In this document: positions 20,375 through 64,000 of the stretch, piece by piece
Numbering within the stretch: position 1 is the first letter of the stretch
How the letters are laid out: each line of letters begins with the position of its first letter
Assembly (NCBI GenBank): GCA_032871835.1
Contig: CM065296.1
Location: 1,436,001 to 1,500,000, forward strand
Length of the DNA: 64,000 nucleotides
Direction of reading: 5' to 3'
DNA from: Dipteronia dyeriana
Lineage: Eukaryota > Streptophyta > Magnoliopsida > Sapindales > Sapindaceae
Notes under the pieces: model-generated
What the model was told of the DNA's origin: nothing
Seen by the model: only the letters and a program-made list of their open reading frames with translations
Databases searched by the model: none
Translations under genes and position numbers: made by a program

Positions 20375-21606
20375 TAGTGGCACTGGATGTCTGGATTGAA
20401 TCTCAATCGTCCATAATTCAACAAATCAAACGTCACAGGCTCTCAGCTAGGCAAGTTGTGTACGTTTCACGGACATAATCGTTACAGCTAGGCAAGTTGT
20501 TTACTTTTACACGGACATAATCCGTACAATCATGCCTGCCTCCTCACATGATCGCATCACCAAATTGTCCTGTTATGATCAATTGATCACGTTTATATAT
20601 ATATATATGTACGATTATGGTCCCTACTTGCTGCACCTTAGACAGTCGATATCTCATTGGTCTATGCATGGTATCCCCTACTGCACCCAAAATTTTAATT
20701 TAAATCATATTAACCAGTTTTACTACAAATCAAATTAAGACTTCAACAATAAGATCATATATATACGTAACTGAACAATCAACTTATGATATATAAGAGA
20801 AATTCTTAGGTTAGGAATTTTAAAAATATTAAATTTAAATATTTATTTTAAATATTTTAAAAATATATAATGGTATTTTTCTAATTAAAAAAAATATATT
20901 TATTATTGTACCAAATCTGACATATACTATATCGTGTATCAAATTTAATACATAATATAACATATACTAAATTTAACACACTATTTGGTACTGTATTAGA
21001 GAAATGATTTTACACTCTATGTTAAAATTTAATATTGACACATTAATTTAGTAATATATCGGAGATACTCTTAGACAGTTAATATCTCATTGGTCTATGC
21101 ATGGTATCCCCTGTTACACCCAAAAATTAAATTTAAATCATGTTAACTGTGTTTTTTTTAAAATAAAATATATTAACTTGTTTTAGTACTTATCAGATTA
21201 AAACTTCAACAATCAGAATATATCTACGTAACTGAACGATAAACTTACGATATATAAGAGAAATTCTTAGGTTAGGAATTTGAGTATAGACAAGATAATT
21301 TGTAGACCTTTTTTTTTTCTAAAGAATTTGTAACAGGGTCGGGTGCATTATGTCAGATCCACTTATATGACACCATGTGTATCTGATTCGTATTATATAT
21401 ATATATCACATTATATAAATGAAATTTAGATGTAGAAATTATCAGGTATGATCATAATCTCGCAAAAAAATTACGTTTATATATATATCACATTATATGA
21501 TATAGATGAAATTTAGATGTAGAAATTATCAGGTATGACCGTAATCTCGCAAAAAAATTGCGTTCAGAATCCCTTACCTAAACCTGCTATATTTATATAA
21601 ATATAT

Positions 21607-22556: not shown

Positions 22557-22943
22557 CTCTCTCATAAGGGATTCCTTATTTTAATTTCCGTAGGAACCTT
22601 AAGAAAATCGCATCGATTTTTATGAATTTTAATTTGAATTTTTTTATGGATGATAAGTTCATAGAATTATAGAAATCTACATATGAATACAATTTAAGAT
22701 TTTTTCTAGTACTATAACTATTTTTTTTTTTGAATTTTCTATATTTTACCTATTTTTTGATGCCTACATATTTAATAAAACCGGAAAAAATAATTGTATC
22801 TGATTTCAAATTTTATTTATAGGTATATTTCATTGAACTTATAATTTACAGAAGAATTCTGATTAAAATTCATAATAAATTGTTATGATTTTCTTAATAT
22901 TCTTACCGAAATTAAAATAAGGGATCACTCGTGAGAGATTCCC
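22554..22943. mobile_element. MITE family X, copy 1
   Basis: The left arm reads CTCTCATAAGGGATTCCTTA then TTTTAATTTCCGTAGGAACC. The right arm, reverse-complemented, reads AATCTCTCACGAGTGATCCC then TTATTTTAATTTCGGTAAG. A second copy with the same arms and shared inner sequence lies at 24611-24994. Confidence 0.75.
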
Positions 22944-23689
22944 TATGTGCATATGTATCAAAATTCTCAAATGATCGATGTAAATGTAATGCATGAAAAT
23001 GGAAAACTCAGTACTCAGTACTGTAGATTAACAGTTTGATGGACTGCCTATGAAAGTTTGATGTTTGATTGTTTTTTTTTTTTCCTTCTATAATTTAGGC
23101 TTTCCAACAAAGAAAATCTCTGCAGATTGATTATTGTCTGTCCTATATGTGGATTTTTTTCAAAAATATAAAGAATTCTAATTCCTGACGTTCATGTTTA
23201 CAGTATTTATTAAAAACCATCGAGAATCAGGTTTTGTGAACCACACAAGCAAATTATAATTTAACACTCACACCTAAAGAATTTAATTCTTCTTCTAGCG
23301 GAACTTATTTCTCTTTTGAGGATTGTTTTCAACAATTTTGCCGATGAATTCCTATCGACCATTGTTCTTTCATCGGGAGTGAAATTTGATTCCGGGTTTA
23401 CTAATCGTGAAATTTGATTCCGGGTTTACTCTAATTCTTGATTTATATTTATAATATTTGTTTAAAAGCTATATAGAATAAAGTTTTTGGACTCCACACA
23501 TAAATTAGAAAAAAAAATCAGGTTCTTGACTTTTATAATGTGAGACTGTGAATTTTATATAAAATCGTGAGCAATATGTGACATGATATTTTGAGTTTAT
23601 AAAAATCGAATTGATCGAAATGTTTAAGTAATAGAGAGTTGATCGGATAAAACACGTTACTAATGTGATCAATATTGTTGGGCTCCGAG

Positions 23690-23828
23690 CTTTTTTGTAA
23701 TGGTTCTGAGCTTTTTAATAAAATCTTCGAGCTTTTTAATAAAGGTTCTGAGACTTTTACCAAAGGTTTTGAGACTTTTACCAAAGGTTTTGAGCTTTTT
23801 GTAATTATATTTCGAGACTTTTAAGTAC
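23690..23828 (-). repeat. Short array of a 21-bp tandem repeat
   Basis: About six units of exactly 21 bp read on the + strand as GGTTCTGAGCTTTTTAATAA(A), ATCTTCGAGC..., GGTTCTGAGAC..., GGTTTTGAGAC... Reverse-complemented, each unit is TTTNNTAAAAAGCTCRRARCC-like, resembling the TTTGAAAAAGTTCTCGATCC units at 55525-56280 and 62870-63870. A GC-rich stretch follows at 23850-23940. Confidence 0.75.
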
Positions 23829-24610
23829 TGACCAGAAAAAAAAAACTTTGGGGGAGCTGCCCTCTGCCTCTCGCGAGCTGGCCGGGTAGCTCGACTAATG
23901 CGAGTTCGACCCTTGAATGGGTCTACGTAGTACCATTCCGTCACCGTTTGAGTGAACGTCTGAGTTTCAACTGGACTTTCTCTCTCTACTTCACAGCTCT
24001 GTCACTGTAAAATGAATGAAAAAAATCTGATGTGGAATAATTATTGGAGATATTTTTATCCGTTCATCGTAATATGTACCTTTTAAATATAAGTTATTAA
24101 ATCAGTGACAGTATTAAAATGACACATCTACAAAATATAGTTTAATTATTGAATTTTAATATATGATATGGATACATGTTAACATTATCTTTAATTAATT
24201 TAAGATTGTAAATAATTAATGATATAAATTAAAGCAGAGGACAATTAAGCAGTATACTTGTCGAAATCAAGTTGATAATGCGGCTGCCTGAATTGACTAC
24301 AATAATGTTGATGTTTCTTTCGCAATTCGCATGTGGAAAAAAAAAATCATTTTAACGGTCTCATTCAAAATTCGAAAAAGTAATTTATGAAAGTGATCTC
24401 AGCACAATTTACGGGTTTTATGTGCGAATGTGAGACTATTTACGATATCACAGTCAGATGAAGCTCCATTTGGAGATTCAAGCCATAAAAGTATAATTTT
24501 AATTGGTGTTGGGATTTTCTTTTTTCTTTTTTCTTTTTTAAGAAAATAAAAATAAAATCATAGATTCTATATTAACTATGTGATCTGTAACAATAACAAA
24601 TCACTATGAG

Positions 24611-34689: not shown

Positions 34690-37519
34690 GTTGCATTAGA
34701 GTTTATTAGGTCCACTCTCACTGAAGCCGGTCCATCTCGAGCCACAAGGTGCACTGATGATGAGGAGGGCATGGTGCCCATCTTCACATTCATGCCAGAC
34801 CGTACTAGGGTAGAACCTATCTCAAAGTCCCTTGCTACAAGGTAGGGGATGCATGAGGGGCTTCAAGTCTGCCTACTTCTCTATCTGAATCTATCAAAGT
34901 AGAGGTCCAGATTGGTGTTACCAAGGTAGAAGAGGTAAGAGAGGTAGGAGAGATCTCGATTGATCCAACTGAGGAGGTGGAGGTCAAGGCTGATTGAAGT
35001 TGATCCAACCAAGGTGGTGGAAGTTGGCTCCAAAGTAGCAGCATTAATGGATGATGGCCCGTTCTTCAACCAAGCAATGAGACTAAAGAGGAAGGATCTG
35101 CTACTGTCGAGGAGACTAACCAGAGAGGTAGATCGGGACCAAGGTAGCTTGCTAGGGTGATGAATGGCCCCATACAAGTGGAGAAGAGGCACCGACCTAG
35201 TAACTGTCCAGAGACATGCTTGAGATCCTAGAAGTTTCCTGCAACTGAGGGAAGGCTTTGGACCCCTCCGGAATGAGTAGGAACCATGATGACTCACTTA
35301 AGCATTGGATGACCCAATATAAATAGAGAGAGGCGACATGTCTGGTACTGGTCCAGAGGCATACTTGGGATCCAAGGATCCCCTAGCAACCGAGAGAAGG
35401 CTCTGGACCATGCTGAAACGAAACAGAAGCTCAGTGGCTTACTAGGGTATTGACCGGGCCTGTATAAGAAGTGAAGAGCCACTAGGCCTTACAGCGGGGC
35501 TGCTACTCCAGAGGCTTAGTTAGGCATGTAGGAGGCCTTACCAAAAAATGGGAAGCCTCTGGGCTATCCTCGATTAGATCGGGCTTCAATAACTTACTAG
35601 GGCGATGAATGACCCAGTATACATTGAGCAAAGCCATCGATCTTGTAGCATTGCTACTGCTCTAGAAGCTTGCTTAGGCATGTAGGTGACCTTACCAAAT
35701 GTGGGAAGCTTCTGGAAACTCCTCGATCTGATCGGGATTCGGTGGCTTGCTAGGGCGGTGAATGACCCGATAAACATGGAGCGAAGCCACCTGTCTAGTA
35801 CTGGTCCAGAAGCATGCTTGGGATCTTTAGAGTCCTTAGCAATTGAAATGAAGCTCTGGACCATGCTGAAATGGATCGGGGGGCTCACTTTGGCGTTGAC
35901 CGGCCGGGTACAAGAAGTGAGGAGCTCCTCGATCAGATCAAGCTTCGATGGCTTACTAGGGCGATGAATGACCCGATATACATTGAGCAAAGCCACCGAT
36001 CTTGTAGGGTTGCTACTGCTCCAGAAGCTTGCTTAGGCATGTAGGTGGCCTTACAAAATATGGGAAGCATCTGGGAACTCCCCAACCAGATCGAGCATCG
36101 GTGGCTTGCTAGAGCTGTGAATGACCTGATAAATATGGAGCGAAGCCACCAGTCTGGTACTGGTCCAGAAGCATGCTTAGGATTTTTAGAGTCTCTAGCA
36201 ATTGAAATGAGGCTCTGGACCATGCTAGAATGGATCGGGGCCGTAGTGGCTCACTTGGGCGTTGACTGACCCCGGTACAAGAAGTGAGAAGCTCATTCGA
36301 TCAAATCGGGCTTCAATGGCTTGCTAGGGCGATGAATGACCTGGTATACATTGAGCAAAGCCATCGATCTTGTAGCGTTGCTACTGCTTCAGAAGCTTGC
36401 TTAGGCATGTAGATGGCCTTACAAAATGTGGGAAGCTTCTGGGAACTCCCCAACCGGATAGGTCTTCGATGACTTGCTAGGGCGATGAATGGCCCGGTAA
36501 ACATGGAGCGAAGCCACCGGTCTGGTACTGGTCTAGAAGCATGCTTAGGATCTTTGGAGTCCCCAGCAATTGAAATGAGACTCTAGACCATGCTGGAATG
36601 GATCAGGGCCGTAGTGGCTCACTTGGGCGTTTACTGGCCCTGTACAAAAAGTGAGAAGCCACTTAGCTTCTGCTAGAGATGCTGCTCTAGAGGCTACACA
36701 TCTGAGTTGGCTTATTGGATTCATGAGTTGACCTACTACATCTATCTAGGAGCTTCTGAAGGGCGGATCTGAAGGCATGAGGGGGTCCGTACGAAAAGTT
36801 ACAATTCTAGTGGATCTGCTTGATAGGTGGTACACTGGTAGTAGAACGAATCTGCTATAAGGGCGTAAGATAGGTGCAACTCTACTGTATAAGAGCTCCC
36901 CAGATATTGGAGTGGTTTAGCTGTGTAAAAGACCTCCAAGCGTGAGGCCACATAGCGGATCTTGTGTAGAGGAGATACGTCGGTACGGAGCAATCCACGA
37001 CAAAAGAACATGAGATGTCTAACTCTACTGCATAGGAGCTTTAGAGGTACTAGTGCAAGTCTGCTAGACAAGTATGGATCTGATGTACTAGAGCTCTAAC
37101 GGTATCAGAGTAGGTCTGTTGTGGAGAAGATAGATAGCTACGACTCTGCTGCACTAGAGCTCTAACGATGCCAGAGCAGGTCTGCTATGGAAGAGTCCTC
37201 CAGGCGCGGAGCTGCTGTAGAGGAGCTCTACCAATATATGAGCATCTTTTCTACCTAGAGGTAGTGTAGTAGACTGGTTCCACCAGGAATCCCACGTACC
37301 ATATTTGCTCCACAACAAACAAAACTCGTCAAATAGCAAAATAAGCACCACACGCGATGCGAAGGCGATATAGACAAGTATGGAGAAAGGACATCATAAA
37401 TAGTAAATGAAATTCCATGAATAACGAATATGTTACCTCGATAGTATAATGATACTCATATAGAGACATGGATGCTTTCAAAAGAGGTGTGGAAATATCC
37501 CACAAACGGTGCCATAAAG
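34690..37519 (-). mobile_element. 5' internal part of a second Tat-like retrotransposon
   Basis: On the minus strand, 5 bp after the end of the LTR, a primer-binding-site-like sequence TGGCACCGTTTGTGGG occupies 37499-37514. Plant Tat-type elements have TGGCGCCGTTTGTGGGG-like sites here. Leftward come about 2.8 kb of non-coding leader with a tandem array. No gag, RT or integrase is recognisable before sequence identity is lost near 34690, so the element is truncated. Many short ORFs here are by-products of the repeats. Confidence 0.65.
35150..36660. repeat. Tandem array with a ~360-bp unit built of two ~180-bp halves
   Basis: The marker CTGGTCCAGAAGCATGCTT occurs at about 35805 and 36161, with variants at about 36527 and 35349. 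CTTRCTAGGGCGATGAATGA occurs at about 35593, 35952 and 36320. Within each unit the two halves both contain a GCTAGGGCGRTGAATGACCY motif. The array is GC-richer than its surroundings and lies in the retrotransposon leader. Confidence 0.85.
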
Positions 37520-46689: not shown

Positions 46690-49600
46690 CTAATCAAGCA
46701 TACCATAACTATCTACCAACCCTATAAGGGTAACATGCCCTTTAAAAACCTTCGGAGATAGTCCCTTGGTTAGGGGATCAGCTATCATCTCTTCCGTGGT
46801 AATATGAATAATAGAAATTTGCAACTTTTGAACTTTCTCTCTAACCACAAGATAATTGATCTCCATATGTTTAGACCCTGAAGACCTTTTATTGTTCTTA
46901 GAGAAAGAAACTGATGCAGAATTGTCACAATAGATTGTCAATGGCTTAGAAATAGAATCGACAATCTGTAACCCTGAAATGAAATTCCGTAACCAGACTG
47001 CTTGGATTGTTGCCTCATAACATGCCACAAACTCAACTTGCATAGTAGATGAAGCTGTAAGTGTCTGCTTGACACTCTTCCACGAAATGGCTCCATCAGC
47101 CAACATAAACACAAAACCTGAAGTGGATTTTAGATCATCTGTACAACCAGCAAAATCCGCATCTGCATAGCCAACAACTTCCAATAGATCTGAACGCCTA
47201 TAAGTGACCATGAAATCCTTTGTTCACTGCAGATAACGCATAACTTTCTTTGCTGCTGTCCAATGATGAATGCCGGGATTACTTTGAAATCTGCCAAGTA
47301 CACTAATTGCAAAAGCAATATCAGGACGTGTACAAACATGTGCATACATCAAACTGCTAACCGCAGATGAATATGTGACATCTTTCATTTGTGAACGTTC
47401 TAGCTCATTCTGGGGACACTGTAGCTTCATAAGTTTATCTCTTTTCACGATAGGTACCTCACCTAGGGAACAAGCACTCATGTTAAACCTCTCTAGTACC
47501 CTATCAATGTAAGTCTTTTGAGATAATCCAAGCAAACCATGTGACCTATCACGTTGTATCTCAATACCAAGGACATAAGAGGCTTCCCCAAAATCCTTCA
47601 TTGTAAAGCTACGAGATAGAAAATTCTTGGTATCATGCAGTAACCCCAAATTATTGCTGGCGAGCAAAATATCAACAACATAAAGTATAAGAAAAATAAA
47701 ATTGCTCCCATTGACCTTGAGGTATATGCAATGATCCATCAAATTTTCAACAAAACCATATGATGTAACAACTTTATCAAATTTCAAATACCATTGCCTT
47801 GAAGCTTGTTTCAGACCATAAATGGATTTTATGAGCTTACAAACCATATGTTCCTTTCCAACCGCCTGAAAACCTTCAGGTTGCATCATGTATACATCCT
47901 CTACGAGATCTCCATTTAGGAAAGCAGTTTTCACATCCATTTGATGCAGCTCTAAATCAAAATGAGCAACTAAGGCCATAATAATCCTAAAGGCATCTTT
48001 CGAAGAGACATGCGAAAAAGTCTCGGTATAATCAATACCTTCTTTTTAACTCAACCCTTTCGCTATAAGTCTAGCTTTATGTCTCTCAATATTGCCTTTA
48101 GAGTCTCGTTTAGTCTTAAAAACCCATTTGCATCCAATGGGTTTACAACCATCAGGCAGTTCAACCAAATCCCAAACACGATTTGTATCCATGGATCTCA
48201 GTTCATCGATCATAGCATCCATCCATTTTGACGATTGATGGCTCTGAACATCTTGATCATAATTCCTCGGATCGTCATCCACTCTTGAGTCAAAATCATG
48301 CTTTTGTAAATAAACAATATAATCATCATGAATGACAGATCTTCGGACTCTCTGAGATCTCTTTAAAGGAACATCAACAACTGGTTGTGGCTCATCAATG
48401 ACTAGCTGGGGTTCATCAATAGCTGGATCGGGCTCATAAGTAACTGGTTGAGGTTCAACAACAACTGGTAAGGGCTCATCTTCTTGTTCAGATAGAAAAT
48501 CATCATGATGCTCTAAGAGAGGTGGTATGACAACATCCAATGAAGTAGAAGATGTCGGATCACCCGATTTGTCCTGTTTAAACTCAAAATCCCAAGTTTG
48601 CATATTCTTCTCAACTTCATTACCTTCCTCCAAGAATACAACAAGTTTAGACTCAACTATCCTCATAGAGTATGTAGGACAATAAAATCTATATCCTTTT
48701 GATTTATCCGCATATCCCATAAAAAATGCACTAACTGTCTTAAAATCCAGCTTTTTCAAATTAGGATCATAAGGCATCACTTCCGCAGGACATCCCCATA
48801 CTCTCATGTGATTTAATTTTGGATTTGAACCAAACCACATTTCAAACGGAGTCTTAGGCACAGATTTGCTTGGAACTCTATTAAGAATGTAAGTTGCAGT
48901 CTTTAATGCATCACCCCATAAAAATTTAGGCAAAGAACTCGTACTGATCATACTTCTTACCATGTCCATTAATGTACGATTCCGCCTTTCAGAAACTCCA
49001 TTCTGTTCAGGTTCACCAGACATAGTGTATTGAGCACCAATCCCACATTCTTGTAAAAACCTCACAAACGGACCAGGATTCTGACCAGCTTCACCGTACC
49101 TACCATAATATTCACCCCCATGATCAGATCTACCACATTTGATCTTTCTTTCTAATTTCAATTCAATATCAACCTTATATATTTTAAAGATATCTAAGGC
49201 TTCAGATTTCTCGTGAATGAGATAGATGTAACCATAACACGAGAAATCATCAATAAAAGAAATGAAATATTTATATCCACCAAGTGCAACGGGTGAAAAT
49301 GGCCCACATATATCGGTATTGATAATTTCCAACAGATTTTGACTTCTGGTAGCCCCTTTCTTTTTAGCTCTTGTCATTTTACCCTTTAAACAATTAACAC
49401 AAGATTCAAAATTTGAAAGGTCAAGTGAATCAAGAATACCATTTCTCACTAATCTTTCAATTCGATCTTTGGATATATGGCCTAAACGTTTATGCCATAG
49501 CATGTACGAACTATTTTCTCTCTGGCGTTTAGATCCAATGGTAGAATTTATCACAGCAGCGGAACGAGAACATTCACCAACCAAATCAGTATGTAAATTC

Positions 49601-49842
49601 AATTTATACAAACAATCACATAAACAACCAGAACCAATGAGAAAAGAACCCTGATAAAGAACAAATCCTTTATTAACGAATTCAAAACAATAGCCACTAA
49701 TATCCAACTTAGAAATGGAAATAAAATTATGTCTGAGAGAAGGAACAAAAACAACATCAACTAAATCTAAAAACTTTCCTGAAGCTAATGGTAATCTAAC
49801 AACTCCTATAAACTCAACTAAAGCCTTCTCTCCATTTCCCAT
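46690..49842 (-). pseudogene. Copia pol: integrase, reverse transcriptase, RNase H
   Basis: Minus-strand domains in order. GAG-pre-integrase with the zinc-binding H..H..C..C ([17 protein letters not shown]), about 49420-49330. Integrase core ([30 protein letters not shown]), with the catalytic D, D and E visible. Copia-type reverse transcriptase at about 48230-47230 ([46 protein letters not shown]). RNase H at 47180-46700 (YADADFAGCTDDLKSTSGFV). The RT motif YVDD reads YVVD near 47670, so the first catalytic aspartate is lost. In-frame stops at about 48044-48046 (after AKGLS) and about 47224 (after MRYLQ) split the frame. Fragment sizes otherwise fit a full-length pol, so decay is recent to moderate. 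Confidence 0.95.
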
Positions 49843-53175: not shown

Positions 53176-55084
53176 GGATTAAAAAAGATGAATACCTAAA
53201 TGGAGACATTCTCCATTTTGATTCCAATGGAGTTGGAACTTAGTGGTGTAAAACTGGGCCGGCCGGTGACAGGCCGGTCCTAGAAGTTCAAGGGTCGTTC
53301 TGGGAACGGCCCGTGAAGGAAGAGGGTCGGGCCAGGCCACGGCCTGGCCCGGGACAGCCCTCATGCCTGGCAGCTGGGAGGAGGCCCGACAAGCCGACCC
53401 GCCTGGCAAGCCTATCCGGCGTGCCAGGCCTTGCGGACCGATCAGCTGGTCCGTTCGAGTCAATTTTTTTTTTTTTTTTTTCAAAAAACCTCCAACGACT
53501 GGAATTGATTTCTAGCCGTTGGAGGAAATAAAAATTACCAAAACCACCCATACAATCTTTTAAATTATATTTTGACCCATAAATCAAATTTTTCTATAAA
53601 TACTTCCATCCATTTCATTTTCCATTAACTCTCTCTATCATTCTTTCAATCTCTCATTCTCTCAAATCTCAATCTCTAATATATTCTCCAATTCTCTAAA
53701 CTTTTTCATTCATTTTGGTTATTACTCTCTCTACAAAATTCTCTACGTTTTCCACCAACACACCAGAACTATGTTATACTTTTACATATGTATTTATTAT
53801 TTACCTGTAAGTTGTAAAACGGTTGCACTCTTTTTCCCTTACCAAGTTTTTATCCCACTGGATTTTTCTTGGTAAGATTTTTAATGAGGCAATCATGTAG
53901 ATATGTATTACTGAATTCCATAAGTGAAAAATAAATAAATAATTAAAAAATTGTTCGTTCTCTTTATTCATTTCAAATCCTAATAATTGTTCGTTCTCTT
54001 CATTCGTTTTAAATTCTAAACCGTTAAGTATAAACTACAAATCCTAAACCATATACCATAAATCCAAGAAAATGTAATTTGGAAAAAAAATTGGACAAAA
54101 AAACTAACCCGCCGGATCAGGCCAGTTAGGCCTAGCCCGCCCGGTCCACCAGAGGGGCCCGACGGACCGGCTTGGCACGGCACGCAGGCACGGCACGCCT
54201 GAGGCAGGCCAGCGTGCCGTGCCTGACCTGCTTATCGCGGGCCGGCCCGACCCGGTCTGTTTCCAGAAATGGATTGGCCAAACCGTCCTTAATGGATCGG
54301 GCCAGTCCATTTTTACACCTTGATTGGAACTTGGAAGAATAGTATTCTCTTCGACCAGTAGGCATCGATTACGTCAATAATCAACATCGATCATTAATGA
54401 TCGTTGCATGTTACCGATGCGGAGGATCCCTAGTTTAAGTCTTTAAGAGATAAGGGTCCCACAAAGGCGAGATAACTTAGATCCAGACGTTGGAGAGTGG
54501 CACTGGATGTCTGGATTGAATCTCAATCGTCCATAAGTCAACAAATCAAATGTCACAGGCTCACTGCTAGGCAAGTTGTGTAATTTCACGGACATAATCG
54601 TTACAGCTAGGCAAGTTGTTTACTTTTTCACAGACATCATCCGTACAATTAGACAGTCAGTATCTCATTGGTCTATGCATGGTATCCCCTACTGCATCCA
54701 AAATTTTAATTTAAATCATATTAACCTGTTTTACTATAAATTAAATTAAGACTTCAACAATCAGAACATATATATACATAACTGAACGATCAATTTATGA
54801 TATAGAAGAGAAATTCTTAAGTTAAGAATTTAAGTGTAGACAGATAATTTATAGACTTTTTTTTTTTGAAAGAATTTGTTGCAGATTCGGGTGTATAAGT
54901 ACATTAGATCCACTCCTATGACACAATGAATATCTATTTCGTGTTATAGAGTATATATATATATATATATATATATTATATGATATAAATGAAATTTAGA
55001 TGTAGAAATTATCAGGTATGATCATAATCTCGCAAACAATTTACGTTCAGAATCCCTTACCTAAACATGCTATATTTATATAAA
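53176..55084 (+). repeat. Duplicated segment, copy 2 (split by a hAT-like MITE)
   Basis: It matches 17078-17225 and 20375-21606. It lacks the plastid insertion and instead keeps about 73 bp (AGGATCCCTAGTTTAAGTCT ... TTGGAG, 54421-54493). Identity ends at TTTATATAAA just before 55085, where the MULE begins. Confidence 0.85.
53241..54323. mobile_element. hAT-like MITE (1083 bp) with a target duplication and a resident empty site
   Basis: Ends are TAGTGGTGTAAAACTGGGCC and, reverse-complemented, TCAAGGTGTAAAAATGGACT. An 8-bp direct repeat TTGGAACT flanks it (53233-53240 and 54324-54331). Copy 1 of the duplicated segment has a single uninterrupted TTGGAACT at 17126-17133, which is the empty site. 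Subterminal regions are very GC-rich (GGCCGGCCGGTGACAGGCCG) and the core is AT-rich. Confidence 0.93.
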
Positions 55085-55520
55085 GAGAAAATGGTGAGAT
55101 ATATCACCTTTTATAAGGTGTGTTGTGATGATGTCACCATTTTAATAACTTAAGTTTAAAAGACACTTATTATGGTGAGCTGTCAAAATTACCCCTAAAC
55201 TTAAATTTTTTAATAGCCCCTTTCTGAACTCGTTGGTATCTCCCCAGAAAAGTTGTCTGAAAAACTTGAGTCTCGACCCTCTCCAGATTCTGCAGTAGAA
55301 GGTAACAAATATTTATGATCTTCACTTAATTTTTTTTTTTTTTTTATGCATTTCAGATATTTTACATTCATTTCTGTGTGGGTTTACAATGTATCCATTC
55401 ATCGATATCAATGTATCCATTTCAGATTCTGCACTAGAATGGTTTTTTCTTGTGTGACCGAGAAAATTTAAAGATAAATCGAACTTATTTTATATTGGAA
55501 CGAGCTCTTGTTAAGTTTGA
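55085..55520. other. Left edge of the MULE, before the repeat array
   Basis: It begins GAGAAAATGGTGAGATATAT at the point where the duplicated segment stops. The sequence TATATCACCTTTTATAAGG could be part of a terminal repeat, but the right end is outside the window. A short open stretch at 55222-55300 (SELVGISPEKLSEKL) ends at a GTAACA donor-like site and may be an exon or a captured fragment. Confidence 0.5.
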
Positions 55521-55524
55521 AAAA

Positions 55525-56283
55525 AGCTCGATTATTTGAAAAAAAATGCTCGATCCCTTAGGAAAAGTTCTCGAACCGTTATAAAAGTTTTCGATAATTT
55601 GACAAATATTCTCGATCCCTTAAAAAAAGTTCTCGATCTTAGAAAAAGTTCTCGGTCCCTTAAAAAATGTTCTCGATCCCTTGAGAAAAGTTCTCAATCC
55701 CTTGATAAAAGTTCTCGAAAATTAAAAAAATATTCTCGATCCGTTTAAAAAGATCTTGAACCCTTTAAAAAGATCTCGAATCGTTACAAATGTTCTCGAT
55801 CCCTTTAAAAAGTTCTCGAACCGTTTGAAATGTTCTCGATCCCTTGTTAAAAGTTCTCGTTCCCTTGTTAAAAGTTCTCGATCCCTTGATAAAAGTTCTC
55901 GATAATTTGACAAATATTCTCGATCCCTTTAAAAAGTTCTCGAACCGTTAGAAATGTTTTCGATCCCTTAGAAAAAGTTCCTCGTTGACTTGTTGAAAGT
56001 TGTCAATCCGTTGATAAAAGTTCTCGGTCCTTTTAACAAATATTCCCGATCCCTTTAAAAAGTTCTCGAACCGTTTGAAATGTTCTCTATCCCTTACAAA
56101 AAGTTCTCGTTCCCTTGTTAAAAGTTCTCGAACCGTTATAAAAAGTTCTTGATAGTTTGACAAATATTCTTGATAAAAGTTCTCGAATCGAACCCTTGAA
56201 AAAGTTCTCGATCCTTTGTAAATTATTCTTGAACCCTTGAAAAAGTTCTCGATCCCTTATATAAAGTACTCGATCCATTTCAA
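55525..56283 (+). repeat. Array of a 20-21-bp repeat (TTCTCGATCC...), upstream of the transposase
   Basis: About 37 units of the type AAAAAGTTCTCGATCCCTTN, mostly 20-23 bp long, with variants ending CGAACCGTTT. A higher-order unit (CTCGATCCCTTTAAAAAG, then TTCTCGAACCGTTTGAAATG) recurs at about 55797, 55919 and 56046, a period of about 122-127 bp. Minus-strand frames through it give repetitive SRELLTRDRE peptides that are artefacts. Confidence 0.92.
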
Positions 56284-56363
56284 ATTTTTGTAATTGTTAG
56301 TAATTGTAAGAGTATTTTTTTTTATCTGTTAATAATTGATTGTGATGATGATTTTCACAGGGC

Positions 56364-59133
56364 AATGAATCGGGTTAGATTAGTAATAACTTACAACGGT
56401 CGATGAGAGCAATTACCTGATGGAAGTCAGAGGTTTGTTGGTTCCGATAACCAAGGAATGTATGTGTCCAGAAATATGACTTACGAAGAGCTGATGTCGA
56501 TCGTACAAACCGTTGTGAAGTTCGATGTGAATAAATACATTGCTGATCTACAATCTATATCAATCGCTCCCGGGACCACATGTCGCACATTTATAAGAAA
56601 TGACGACGATGTTTTTTTTATGCTAAGGGAATATAGGGTAATCCCTCAAGTATGTATCAGTTTAATTGGGAGGGCTGCAGGAGGTGTCATCGGTGAAGAA
56701 ATCCCTCTTCATGATAACTCCCAACAATTTCGATCTTTAGGAGGAAGCAACCAATTATTCACAGAAAGAAATGGGATTGACGGTAGGGAAAACCTATGTG
56801 GTGTCCCACCGAAAGTAGTCGACCATGATGATATAGTTGGAGCTCAATTGGACGATGATTTCGGTTGTCAAATTGAATTGAACGCTAGGCAATACAACCA
56901 CCAATACAATGAGATGTACGATGACATGAACAATGAGCGAAACAATTTACCTCATAACCTACCAATCCATGAGGTGGCTAATAAGGCAAATTTGCATCCG
57001 ATACATAATGTACCAAACAATGAGGAAGATGAAGAACGGTTCGAAACGGAAAGACGTGCAAGACGTGTCCATAGATGTAGTTTCACTACAGTAGATATAG
57101 CTGGGACATCTGAGGTCATGCCTGATGTAACTCCAGTTGATTCTGAGAATACCATAACGTGGGTTATTCTAGGAGCAGAATCGTACTCGTTTGGTATGGA
57201 TGGAAGCAGAAACTGGGTAGAAGATGAACCTACCAGCATGATATATAAAGGTCATTTTTTTCCTACTAAAAAGGATTTGAAGAGATTGGCTGGCCATTTT
57301 GCAATGCGGCACCACTTAAAGTGGAAGGTGAAAAGGTAGAATAAGACAACATTACATCTGGTTTGTTTGATAGACAACTGTACATGGAAGTTAAGAGCGG
57401 TTAGGACAGATGAAGCGACATATTTTCAAGTACGTAGTTTTATCAACGAACACACTTGTCCGTTGGAGGAGATTCACCGCCGCCATCGACAAGCTAGTGC
57501 AGTCATAATTAGAGAAGTGGTTTCACCTAGATTGCAGCAACATGATGGTCGATTAATGCGTCCGAAGGACATAATTGCTGACATGAAAACAATGTATGGC
57601 ATCCAAATAATGTACAGTAAGGCACATCAAGCCCTTGATTATGCTTTGTCACTCACCTATGGAACGCATGAGGAAAACTTCCAACTGCTGTCATCATTCG
57701 GTTACGTGTTGGAACAACAAAATCTCGGAATGACAACTGACTTACAGTGCGATGAAAATGGTAAATTCCTATACTTTTTCATATCGTTGGGTGCCTCAGT
57801 CAGAGCATTCCAGAGGTGTATGTGTCCAGTTATTACCGTTGATGGTATCCATTTAAAGGGTAGATTCGGGGGACAATGTTTGTTGCAGTTGCACAAGATG
57901 GGAATTAACATGTTTATCCAATTGCTTTTAGGTACGGTGACTCGGAAAATAACCTATCATGGGAGTGGTTTTTTGATTGCTTGAAAGGTGCCCTTGGCCA
58001 TATAGATGATTTGGTTTTCATTTATGATCGACATGCAAGCATTGAAGCATGGATTTCTAAAGTGTTCCCTTATGCCACCCATACCATATGTTGTTGGCAC
58101 TTTTATGAAAATATTAAGAAGAGATATCGTAGAAAGGATGTTGCCGCAATAATGGATAAAGCAGTCCGAGCGTACACCGAGTTGCAATATAACCGGCACA
58201 TGGAAGAGTTACATAACTTGCATCCGAATGCATATGAATATGTAATTGATGCCGGTCCACAGAAGTGGTCCCGTGTTCACTGCCCCGACAGAAGGTATAG
58301 GGTCATGACAACAAATGCTGCAGAATGCATAAATTTATGCCTTAAATTTGCACGGCAACTGCCTATGTTGACTTTGGCAGAGTTTATTAGGAATATGCTA
58401 CAGCGTTGGTTTCACGATAGTCATAGGGCTGCACAATCCATGCGTCATCAGTCGACCGACGCAACACATCTTGTGATCCTGAAACGTGTAGAAAAGTGCA
58501 ATTTTATGACCATTAATCCAGTTGACTGGAACATATTTTGGATGAAACGGGCTGGAAAACAGTGGATTGTTGACTTAGCTTGGAAGACCTGCACATGTAA
58601 CAAATTTCAAATGGACATTCTTCCATGTTCTCACGCTCTCGCTGCCGCAAGGTACATCATACATTTTTGTGTACGGTTAATATTACTTAAACATCATACA
58701 ATTTTATCATCGTTTTCAATGTTTTTACAGGGACCGAAACATGGATTTCACATCCCTTTGTGCGGACTACTACAAGCGACAAACACTTATTGAAGCGTAC
58801 TCAGTTCCTATTATACCGGTTGGACATCCTTCCAATTGGATTGTGCCATCTGACATCGCCGACAGAGTCGTTTTGAATCCAAGCTCCAGGAGACAAGCAG
58901 GCCGCCCGAGGGCTTCACACCCTATCTCGTCTTCGGAGAGAACATCCACACAGAATTGTAGGCGATGTTGACAACCAGGGCATAATTCTAGGAGATGTTC
59001 TAACCCAGCTTTTACTGATGAAGATCTGAGCAGAGTCATTCCTGAGGAATACAGACGCAAGTGTAGTATCTGTCATATTGTCGATCACAATACACAGACA
59101 TGCCCTACTAGAGACGGTGGGATCGTGGAATGA
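56364..59133 (+). pseudogene. MuDR-type MULE transposase (mudrA-like), disrupted
   Basis: The start (MNRVRLVITYNG) follows an acceptor-like TTTTCACAG. An N-terminal domain precedes the MuDR DNA-binding domain (about 57160-57450: FFPTKKDLKRLAGHFAMRHH, TWKLRAVR, FINEHTC). The MULE transposase core retains all three acidic residues: D in VITVDGIHLKG (~57840), D in VFIYDRHASI (~58030), E in TTNAAECINL (~58320), with CCWHF between. A SWIM zinc finger (CTCNKFQMDILPCSHALAAA, ~58590-58650) is followed by a short intron (58652-58730). Two CX2CX4HX4C knuckles come last (CRRC*QPGHNSRRC, CSICHIVDHNTQTC). Breaks: W-to-stop TGA after YNGR, TAG near 57337, frameshifts near 57350 and 57870, and TGA inside the first knuckle at 58968-58970. 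Length and domain order are otherwise complete, so it was an autonomous element. Confidence 0.95.
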
Positions 59134-59393
59134 ATTTAGGCCTTATCATGATGACATTGTTATAATTTGAACTCGTATGACTTGTTAAGTAACTGAAATG
59201 CAATTGTATTTAAATATTCTCGGTATATATAAAAATGTAAAAGCTTTTACTGATGAAGATCCGAGCAGAGTCATTCTTGAGGTAAATTGCCGTAAAACTG
59301 TTGGTACATATACAAAAGAATTTGTAAATATATAAAGTAATTGGAACATATAAAACAGAATTGGTACGTATACACACGAATTACTATAGAAAT
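59134..59393. other. Intergenic space between convergent MULE genes
   Basis: 260 bp of AT-rich sequence between the stop codons of the transposase and the protease gene. TTTTACTGATGAAGATC (59240s) repeats a phrase from the transposase 3' end (about 59009-59040), a local duplication. Confidence 0.6.
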
Positions 59394-60781
59394 CTATACG
59401 GGCCTGGAGTTTGCAAATATTTCAACCGTCATCTTCTCCTGAATGATCCCCATATCGTCTTCAGACCAATCGAAATCTTTTTTGTTCACCAGTATGTACT
59501 CGATCAACCTCACCGTGTGGGGACCACAGTTACCCCTGAAGTTTGACACATTAACAAGCGTTAATAAAACATTAGGTTTATACTAATACAATCTTAAAGT
59601 GACTATTATGTAATGTCTTACGATTGCTTCTGTTGGGGGATATGTTTTCCCGACACTACGGTGACATCAACGGGCTTACTTGTCTTCTCAAATTTCAACA
59701 GTCATGCCGCTCGTTTAGTATGAAACCCGTCCTGATGCAACATCGAGGGCACAAAGTAGTGCAACGGGGCTACCTACTGCTTTCGGATATGAGGTTCGAC
59801 CTCTTGTCTCCAGGGGTCGACTATGAACAGCTTCCCGCATGTGAGATCCACAGTCACCAGCAGCCAATGTTGGTGCCCAATGTTGCACGGTATCAGGACC
59901 TGGAAACGTCAACAACAGGTGTTAGGATGTACAAAGCCATTTATATATACAATTGCAAACCATGTCAAGTAACACTTACCATGTCAACCTCGTGCCACAG
60001 GCGACATCCAATCGGGGCACCCCCAAGGACCGTTGTGAGGTCGCCATCCTTCCACCAAGACCTTAACACATTCCAACGGCTCGGGGTGATCTGCCTGCGA
60101 GAATTGCTTTTCCTGTACTGGTGTTCCAGAAAGGACTGCAGAAACAATAACACAAATTAATTTTTGTTTTCCATACACACATAAAACAACGCGTTATCAT
60201 TATTAATTTCATTACTTATAAAGAATTGCGAGTCCAATGTGGTAACCATTTGACTATACACATTCAGAAATGCCCGTAAACGCTTCCGAAGAATATGGAG
60301 GTACGCGTCCATATGCTGGGAATATAAACACGTTAAGAAATGTTAGGATGTTTACACTTCTAAAACAAATACTGAAATCAGGATTTACGGTCCCACAAAC
60401 CTGACCATCAACATCCATGAAGTTGGTTTGCAACCGATGGAACCATACGGCATCAACCGGCTCCAGCAAATCAACATGAATGTCTGCATTAATGTTCCAA
60501 CATCTACACTTTCATATAATGCATTACAAGAAATTCGGCCACCTAAACAACAATGAAATTTACTTACAGTTTCCCGTTTACGTTCCTCTTGTAGGCTTGG
60601 TGCACCTTCAACTGGGTATCGTCCACCAGTTCCTGGGGATTATGTACGTGGTCAGGTCCCTCTACTATTACCCTCGTTCTCTTTGGTTGGCACGGATTTG
60701 TGTACAGGCTAACCAACTGCCAACCGCCAACCGCGCTTCAGTACACGCCTCTGCTGTCTAACTCCCCCCGACGGGGTATGC

Positions 60782-61065
60782 TGAGATGAGGATGAGAGAG
60801 GGGGAGCCTGCTGCTCGAGGGGAGGTCGATGGGGAGCCTGTTGCTTGGTCGGAGGTGGAGGTGGAGGCGGAGGTAGAGGGGGAGGGGGGGAGGGGGGAGG
60901 GGGAGCCTGCTGCTCAAACGTCGATGGAGCCTACTGCTCGAATGTCGATGGAGGGGGAGCCTGTTTCTAGCTAGGAGGTGGCGGGGGAGCCTGCTAATAG
61001 CTCTGAGCGGGAGAGAGGGGCCGACTGCTCGCTCAGAGGGGGAGAGGGAGTGGGAGGGGGAGTGG
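60782..61065. repeat. G-rich/C-rich low-complexity tract encoding the linker
   Basis: Repeated GGGGGAGCCTGCTGCTCG and GGAGGTGGAGG words on the + strand. On the coding (minus) strand they give Pro/Ser/Ala-rich sequence between DUF1985 and the protease domain. Confidence 0.8.
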
Positions 61066-61139
61066 GAGACTGAGCAAACTGGTGCTCCAGAAATGCCCCT
61101 CCGGTATGTGGATCCTCTGTATAGGTCCGAAGCCATGAA

Positions 61140-61318
61140 GGCCCCCGATCAATGCAAGCAACTCCCTATGTTGTTGCTGTCGATCCTCCTCGCTCTTTCG
61201 AAACATATCGAGCAAACCCCCGTGCTGTAGTTGTCGATCCTCTTCACTCTTCATGAAGGCTTCACCCAAATCTCGATGCTATTATTGTCGATCCTCCTCA
61301 CTCTTCCGGAGGGCTTCA
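61140..61318 (-). repeat. 60-bp tandem repeat, three copies, coding for a coiled coil
   Basis: The units encode RKSEEDRQ..HRDLGEAF, MKSEEDRQLQHGGLLDMF and RKSEEDRQQQHRELLALI. They lie in frame with each other in the MULE protease gene. The first unit has two stops in place of two Gln codons. Confidence 0.85.
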
Positions 61319-62869
61319 CACAACTCCTTCAAGTTATGTTCTAAACGAGCCTGAAATCATGCAACTTTGTTAATACGAAAAAAATCAACAACTCTTGTTA
61401 ATGAAAAGAAAGCTACCATCTGAACTTACCTCCCCATCAATTTGAACGCGAGCACAGGAATCCCCGGTAGGGGAACCAGTTCCTCGGGTGGTAAACCGAA
61501 CCTACCTTACTCACAGAGGAGACGGGTCAGATTCGCCAGTGTCCATGCCTCTGAAATCTGGGCCTGTAGGGTCTGAAGCCTCCGTCTCAGTACACCTCCC
61601 ACCCTCACCCTCCTAATCGGGACGAACTGCACTTGTAGTCAGCTCAGGGGCAGTAGAAAGGTAAACCCTATCGTCCTGCACATACGGGCTCCCCCCTCAC
61701 TTAGGCCTGTAAAGTACGGGGCCACCGCCTCAGCTGCTGTGGGCATGATTTTCGTCCTCGCCGACATCTGAAACCGTAGTTAGATGAATTTCATTGTTAC
61801 TTATCGTAAGTAATATAAATGACTTAACAAAAAAAAAACTTACCCTAGCACTAAAAATCTTCTCCAGCTTCTTCCCTCTGAGTTGTTTGGTCAACTCCTA
61901 CTTCAACAACCGAGGGGAAAGGTCTGTAACCCTCCGAGTCCCGAAAACCTCGCCCAGTTGAGGGATCAGCTCAAAAGCAAATATCTGCATCAAAGATACG
62001 TACAATTATAATCCAAAACAATTTTGGATTAAAAATTAAATGTACTTGTTGGAATAAAAATTTCTTACCGAAAGGGCGTGTGATAGACCGTAGATGTTTT
62101 ACCCCTTCACAGAATGTCCAACATTGCCCTGTGACTATTGCCGTCTCTCCTCACGACGTCGCGGTAAGGCATGCTTGAATGAAAATATAGAATACCTATA
62201 GACGTGGGCACCCCACGGGAACGTATCGAAGGCATTGAGGTCCTCTACCAACCCAAACTGCCAAACTGGAATCTTCAATCTCTAGTCCACCCCCATCAGT
62301 ATCCAGTTCAACATGTAAATGAGGCACAACTTCACAGCATCGTACGCCTTTTAAAACTCTCCATGGGTAAGAACAACCCTCAAGTCATCCAACGATACCT
62401 CATCATGTGCAGGAAAGTACCGTTGATGTATGCCATTCTCAACTGCAACATACATACTCGTGTCCGGTACGACTCCAAAACGTAATCCGGTGATGAGGCT
62501 AAATTCCACCTTAGAAAACCTTACCACATGGTTCCTTAACAAGAACCGCATCTCATCTGTCCCCCCGTCATGGTCCAACTCCCGCAACAGCAACTGATGA
62601 ATAACACCACCAAAAAACTTCAGCTCCTGGTGTATCGACATGAAATGCCCGAAACAAGAGGCCATGAACCGACGCAGATCCTGAACAGCAAACTCTTCAG
62701 AGACCCGATTCAGTGTATCGTCTATACGGGCGAGGGCTTCAAAATGGTCGTGTCGGGTCAATTTTCCCTTGAACCAATCTCCCTCTGCAGTTTTAAGCAA
62801 TTCCTTCATACTGCCCGTCATCTGCAATGTCATAGAAACAGTACATCAGTAAACTTCACAAAAATTAGA

Positions 62870-63870
62870 AAATATTCTCAATCGTTTGAAACAAATTCTC
62901 GATACTTTTAAAATATTCTCGATCCTTTGATAAAGTTCTTGATTTTTTTTGAAAGTTCTCGATCCTTTGCAAATAGGCTCGATCCTTTGTAAATAGTCTC
63001 GATCCTTTGTAAAACCTCTCGATTCATTGAAAAAACTTCACGATCATTTAAAAAAGTTATCGATTTGTTTCAAAAGTTCTCGATCCTTTGCAAATAGTCT
63101 CGATCCTTTGAAATTAGTCTCGATCTTTTGTAAAACCTCTCGATTCATTGAAAAAACTTCACGATCATTTTAAAAAGTTCTCGATTTGTTTAAAAAGTTC
63201 TCGATCCTTTGCAAATAGGCTCGATCCTTTGAAATTAGTCTCGATCCTTTGTAAAACCTCTCGATTCATTGAAAAAACTTCACGATCATTTGAAAAAGTT
63301 ATCGGTTTGTTTCGAAAGTTCTCGATCCTTTGCAAATAGGCTCGATCCTTTGAAATTAGTCTCGATCCTTTGTAAAACCTCTCGATTCATTGAAAAAACT
63401 TCACGATCATTTGAAAAAGTTCTCGACCCTTTGAAAAACATTCTCAATCGTTAGAAAATATTCTCGATCCTTTCAAAAACCTCCCGATTCTTTGAAAAAT
63501 CTTCTCGATCATTTTCTAAAAACTGGACTATTTGAAAAACATTCTCGATCGTTTCAAAACATTCTCGATCCTTTGAAAATATTCTCGATACTTTCACAAA
63601 CCTCTCGATTCCTTGAAAAATCTTCTCGATTCGATCATTTTAAAAAATCTCAATCCTTTGAAAAACAATCTCGATCGTTATCATAATATTCTCGATCGTT
63701 TTCAAAAATTCTCGATCCTTTCATAATAGTCTCAATCCTTTGAAAAAACTCTCGATTCTATGAAAAATATTCTCGATCATTTAACAAAAGGTCGATCACT
63801 TTGAAAAACCTCTCGAATCTTTCTAAAAAATTCCCTTGATCTCGCTTGAAATATTCTCGATTTATTTTTG
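62870..63870 (+). repeat. Second array of the 20-21-bp repeat, upstream of the protease gene
   Basis: About 45 units of the type TTTGAAAAAGTTCTCGATCC. A higher-order unit of 121 bp (marker CTCGATCCTTTGCAAATA) recurs at about 62958, 63079, 63200 and 63321, with the same internal order of variants (GGCTCG, AGTCTCG, CCTCTCG, CTTCACG, GTTATCG). Its orientation on the + strand is the same as in the first array. It begins about 40 bp upstream of the protease start codon. Confidence 0.93.
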
Positions 63871-64000
63871 TTCAAAAATTGCTCGATACCAGAATATTGA
63901 ACCTCATTTCAAACCCAAACCAAAACAACAACCAGTGTCAACCCTAATCTACAATTTCAATCAACAAAACAAGTCTAAAATGCAATGATAAGTTATGAAC
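63871..64000. other. Sequence after the array, window edge
   Basis: C/A-rich, non-repetitive sequence without a recognised feature. The right end of the MULE is not reached. Confidence 0.5.

Follow-up and report, generated by a model that had tools for sequence, protein, structure and literature searches.

The window analysed here is a stretch of 64,000 nucleotides from Dipteronia dyeriana, and its right-hand part holds a dead copy of a Mutator-like element (MULE) that starts at 55085 and whose right end lies beyond the window. It contains two convergent genes and two arrays of a short repeat. The features are as follows, in coordinates of the window.

55076..55084, no strand: predicted 9-bp target-site duplication TTATATAAA, left copy (the last 9 bp in common with the repeat copy ending at 21601)
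55085..55500, plus strand: left end of the element, containing a 13-bp inverted pair (55088-55100 / 55131-55143)
55525..56275, plus strand: left array, 36 units of AAA-N3-TCTCGA-N4-TT at 20-21-bp spacing (core search)
56365..59133, plus strand: MuDR-type transposase gene (VANA-like), broken (Pfam, translation)
59134..59393, no strand: gap of 260 bp between the convergent stops (from gene coordinates)
59394..62833, minus strand: VANC-like gene with DUF1985 and Ulp1 (C48) parts, about nine predicted exons, broken (Pfam, GT-AG)
59394..60315, minus strand: exons 6-9 of this gene, Ulp1 C48 protease domain (Pfam), with two in-frame stops in exon 8
61141..61351, minus strand: first part of exon 4, with three 18-aa peptide repeats (RKSEEDRQ-like; translation)
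61844..62833, minus strand: exons 1-2, DUF1985 region, by sequence a relative of VANC21 (9lnj), with five in-frame stops
62875..63888, plus strand: right array, 49 units, core and orientation as in the left array (core search)

The left boundary is set by the flanking sequence. In a comparison within the window, the left flank resembled another copy of its repeat (21478-21601), and the resemblance ceases at 55084 and 21601, respectively; therefore the element starts at 55085, where the earlier note had also placed it. We infer that TTATATAAA is the target-site duplication, of which the right copy would fall outside the window. At the right boundary, beyond the window, the end of the element is predicted to be followed by TTATATAAA and then by TATATTAAAG-like sequence. 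The flank belongs to a dispersed repeat with two related copies (20376-21601 and 54496-55084, pieces 76-94% identical), and the MULE adjoins the edge of the latter.

The transposase gene has its ATG at 56365, a single GT-AG intron (58652-58730) and a stop codon that ends at 59133. Pfam found the domains MULE (4e-18), Transposase_mut (5e-10) and SWIM (2e-5), all above cut-off, and DBD_Tnp_Mut, the MuDR DNA-binding domain, only below cut-off. The reading frame is interrupted by four in-frame stops (56404, 57337, 57906 and 58969) and one frameshift near 57871; therefore this copy would not give a transposase protein. Its partner on the minus strand matched DUF1985 (1e-18) and Peptidase_C48 (2e-17) in Pfam, and its predicted exons were placed by eye from GT-AG ends and homologous reading frames. 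Exons 3-4 contain further stops and a change of frame. In the Ulp1 part a histidine, an aspartate and a cysteine are retained at the usual Ulp1 positions, and they match three Acer proteins in an alignment made by eye. No PDB chain matched the Ulp1 part at E<=0.001. The earlier note had described a MuDR-like transposase at 56364-59133 converging with a DUF1985/Ulp1 gene at 62833-59394, with 260 bp between the stops. Pfam and the coordinates agree with its second gene and the gap, and with the identity and end of the transposase, but the ATG lies at 56365. Both genes are present as it stated, although both are broken by internal stops.

When the DUF1985 part was compared with solved structures, it matched VANC21 (9lnj/9lnk) over residues 93-298 with E=9e-7, and with E=1.4e-6 when a 46-sequence family profile was used; the remaining matches had E 0.39 or worse. 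On this sequence comparison the DUF1985 part is a remote relative of VANC21. Structure models add nothing to the link: the AlphaFold models of two relatives were poor (mean pLDDT 54 and 45), and a PDB fold search with the first gave 46 matches at E<=10, none of them at E<=0.001 and VANC21 not among them. Identity to five Acer relatives each was 70-72% for the transposase, 60-61% for DUF1985 and 44-48% for Ulp1, where the relatives were chosen from lists and came from two Acer species in the transposase set and from A. negundo in the other sets. Lower conservation of the DUF1985 and Ulp1 parts than of the transposase, together with peptide repeats, is a VANC-like feature. There are three units of the 18-aa peptide repeat here; five D. 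dyeriana proteins have two or three, counted by eye, and 19 Acer negundo proteins have a single match each to its pattern (24 of the 202 proteins fetched matched the pattern).

Relatives of both genes are numerous in Dipteronia and Acer. The DUF1985 part found 211 proteins at E<=0.001; among the 120 of these matches that were listed, the closest relatives were D. dyeriana proteins, and the best of those had at most 88% identity over 54-59% of the query, or 85% over 85%. With the joined DUF1985-Ulp1 query 69 proteins were found, 14 of which carry DUF1985 and C48 together (12 in Acer negundo). The transposase had 40 relatives of up to 903 aa, and three from Acer, 843-903 aa in length, represent 27, 45 and 94 sequences. 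Among 13 transposase genes of D. dyeriana, three stand directly next to a DUF1985/C48 gene, and four are no more than two gene numbers away from one. Uniform placement gives an expectation of 0.15, and the observed count was reached in 2 of 100,000 random placements, on the assumptions that annotation numbers reflect the order of the genes and that genes are placed uniformly; the latter understates chance if transposase or DUF1985 genes cluster. In D. sinensis one of eight transposase genes is adjacent to a DUF1985/C48 gene, two are within two gene numbers (0.03 expected under uniform placement) and three within three, the third case being a hAT-like protein. These observations suggest that transposase and DUF1985/C48 genes travel as a pair. 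In the partial listing, nine of the 13 D. dyeriana transposases and six of the eight from D. sinensis lack a listed DUF1985/C48 gene at a distance of two gene numbers or less, and some copies may carry the two genes apart. As a stand-in for the earlier note's refuting condition of separate copies, the gene numbers show both situations, adjacent pairs and transposases with no such neighbour listed.

Each gene has an array upstream. A unit was counted when it had at most three mismatches to a nine-base core, and intervals of 20 or 21 bp, about two helical turns of DNA, account for 30 of 35 in the left array (0.75 kb) and 43 of 48 in the right array (1.0 kb). The left array begins 440 bp inside the element end and its inner edge is about 90 bp from the transposase ATG, and the edge of the right array is about 40 bp from the start codon of the DUF1985-Ulp1 gene. 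Both arrays run in one orientation on the plus strand (CTCGAT occurs on the reverse strand 0 times in either), and therefore the element ends are not mirrored. Higher-order periods are 124 and 184 bp on the left and 101 and 121 bp on the right. Just before both ATGs there are CAG acceptor-like ends (56285-56364 and 62834-62875, by eye), which may mean that each array is part of a first intron, as with one of the VANC21 arrays.

The two arrays share a motif, and their spacers differ. Columns AAA (-5 to -3), TCTCGA (1 to 6) and TT (11, 12) agree across the arrays with frequency distances of 0.03-0.12, against 0.16-0.57 for the other twelve columns compared. Eleven shared positions with diverged spacers would be expected if one protein reads both arrays. 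Because units were chosen by likeness to the core, core conservation is inflated; the AAA and TT flanks took no part in the anchoring, and anchoring on TCGA alone recovers identical flanks. When only the flanks were used as anchor, the core, with one mismatch allowed, was present in 28 of 38 sites on the left and, more weakly, in 31 of 58 on the right, and some of the misses are likely to be register slips in A-rich DNA. When a profile trained on one array was run on the other, 48 of the 49 right units, or 34 of the 36 left ones, scored higher than the 99.99th percentile of a background, namely the plus strand of the first 55 kb of the window. With a joint profile at a fixed threshold there were 79 forward matches within the arrays and none on the forward strand outside them; on the reverse strand four scattered matches lay outside. 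An 18-base pattern of the array had 0 matches in viral contigs. The unit counts and the cross-array test bear out the proposal that a related 20-21-bp array stands upstream of each gene. The term kilobase-scale, which the earlier note used for both, fits the right array and exceeds the left.

Most units centre on a single CpG, which is intact in 72 of 85, while neighbouring dinucleotides are kept in 52 to 73 of 85. The observed/expected ratio of CpG is 1.83 in the left array and 2.07 in the right array, compared with 0.81 for the transposase gene, 0.73 for the DUF1985 gene and 0.68 for bases 1-54000 (0.68-0.85 across all non-array stretches measured). CHG sites number 8 and 3 in the arrays and 95 in the transposase gene. 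CpG retention could come partly from recent homogenisation or from the picking of units by core likeness. A second, shorter 21-bp array at 23682-23830 has a different core (unit GGTTCTGAGCTTTTTAATAAA) and a similar period and A/T flanks, and it may be what is left of the target of another such family.

The convergent layout is that of the two genes of maize MuDR. The earlier note compared the pair to mudrA and mudrB, and the comparison holds for the layout but not for the second gene, which by Pfam is a DUF1985-Ulp1 (C48) gene and not mudrB. Motif sequence, density and helical periodicity are reported to set specificity in work by Sasaki (2022, EMBO J), which is the key study on eudicots and may already include related cases. 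The excerpts of the literature used here describe VANC21 as the transposon-encoded anti-silencing protein of Arabidopsis VANDAL21, which binds YAGTATTAY; the motifs of VANC6 are AGTTGTCC and AGTTGTAC (PMC5735166). VANC proteins carry the DUF1985 domain and have tandem peptide motifs in their variable regions, and VANA is more conserved (PMC5735166). Tandemly repeated VANC21 motifs precede VANA21 and also occur within introns of VANB21 and VANC21 (Hosaka 2017, PMC5735166). The Dipteronia element resembles VANDAL21 (Hiun) in several ways: a MULE transposase is paired with a DUF1985 gene, as in VANA21/VANC21; motif arrays precede the transposase gene and also lie close to or within the VANC gene; variable regions hold peptide repeats; and the transposase is the better conserved protein. 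It differs in its additional C-terminal Ulp1 domain, in its plant lineage and in its CpG-bearing TCTCGA motif, which is unlike the published VANC21 and VANC6 motifs.

VANDALs have terminal inverted repeats that are degenerate or missing, and Kaonashi elements have non-TIR ends. In Kaonashi (KI/KIU) elements the Ulp1 domain is in reverse orientation to mudrA (PMC2528002), and melon, rice and grapevine MULEs with transposase and ULP1 in one element are described in the same paper (PMC2528002). Excerpts of a 2026 review equate Ulp1-carrying VANC genes of VANDALs with KIUs, acting on motifs in KIU-carrying VANDALs (PMC13317346). In Dipteronia the Ulp1 domain (Peptidase_C48, minus strand) is likewise reversed relative to the transposase, and the difference is in the host plant. 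The earlier note was thus right to see a Kaonashi-like ULP1-MULE, with Peptidase_C48 at 2e-17 opposite a MULE transposase. Its statement that it knew of no description of such arrays does not hold for the class, since the VANDAL21 tandem repeats have been published (Hosaka 2017, PMC5735166). The class of element is already known (VANDAL/Kaonashi). The excerpts of the grapevine MULE paper (PMC2528002) contain no mention of tandem arrays, and those of a paper on a three-gene barley MULE contain none of tandem, array, subterminal or ULP1. Among the papers listed in searches of openly licensed literature, one of which named Dipteronia (8 of 1,220 papers listed), none dealt with such arrays outside Arabidopsis.

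Taken from the sequence, this broken MULE carries a VANC-related DUF1985-Ulp1 gene, and its arrays are likely to be binding platforms for a methylation-stripping protein of the VANC type. We read the arrays as VANC-type targets on the basis of the kinship with VANC21, the matching placement of the arrays, the peptide repeats and the conserved transposase. In an intact copy, the DUF1985-Ulp1 protein would bind TCTCGA together with the A and T flanks and would occupy many phased sites along the array. Silencing marks might then be lost near both genes, which would allow expression of the transposase and the anti-silencer. At the array, the Ulp1 domain might strip a silencing protein of the host of its SUMO, although this is a guess. 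The dead copy described here could serve, at most, as a target in trans. It is doubtful that the array is a methylation-gated switch in which the motif brings its own methylation substrate, the protein binds dozens of phased CpG sites directly and Ulp1 strips SUMO from the host silencing machinery at that spot.

The earlier note had suggested transposase-binding platforms or promoters, and such roles have to be weighed against VANC-type targets. Transposase-binding subterminal repeats occur in some CACTA and hAT elements, and arrays of this kind, with the DUF1985-Ulp1 gene as a passenger, would agree with a common core and with the position of the arrays on the outer sides of both genes. We regard this as very unlikely, because the motif has one orientation on both sides and the ends are unmirrored, and because the left array stands well inside the element end, with its inner edge close to the ATG. 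Tandem repeats of VANC motifs at such places have, moreover, already been published (PMC5735166). Promoters or enhancers read by transcription factors of the host, such as heat-shock factors, would account for the short distance of the array edges from the two start codons, but they would leave the pairing with a VANC relative unexplained, and we consider this role distinctly unlikely, though both could act together. TTCnnGAA, part of the heat-shock element, has 8 occurrences in the left array and 0 in the right array. Heat-shock elements were rejected on this ground and for lack of the three-part element in either array.

Neutral expansion of AT-rich satellites, with a core common by descent alone, is a most improbable origin for the arrays. 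The higher-order periods hint at recent amplification, which could also hold units alike. Against this, eleven positions are constant between the arrays while the positions between them have diverged, and the ratio of CpG is more than double that of the other stretches. The core CpG has been kept, though methylated CpG should decay fastest and the picking of units favours kept sites. VANC-type targets are most likely the better reading than transposase sites or plain promoters, and it is the VANC21-related partner and the VANC21 repeats at like places that favour them over the two roles named in the earlier note.

If the arrays are VANC-type targets, VANC-type anti-silencing reaches maple-family trees, and the element would be a maple-family relative of a known transposon anti-silencing trick; the experiments described in the papers used here were all in Arabidopsis. 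The array gives a concrete candidate target motif for an Ulp1-fused VANC protein. With a motif centred on CpG, one could ask directly whether methylated DNA is bound by VANC-type proteins; the Ulp1 fusion likewise raises the question of SUMO removal as part of the mechanism.

Elsewhere in the window, positions 22560-22953 look by eye like a small element whose inverted ends measure about 35 bp, and a 368-bp tandem repeat is present at 35567-36659 in three copies with 87% matching. Pieces of a retrotransposon polyprotein (RVT_2 and gag_pre-integrs) lie on the minus strand at 47227-49842, which we take to be from a Copia-type retrotransposon.
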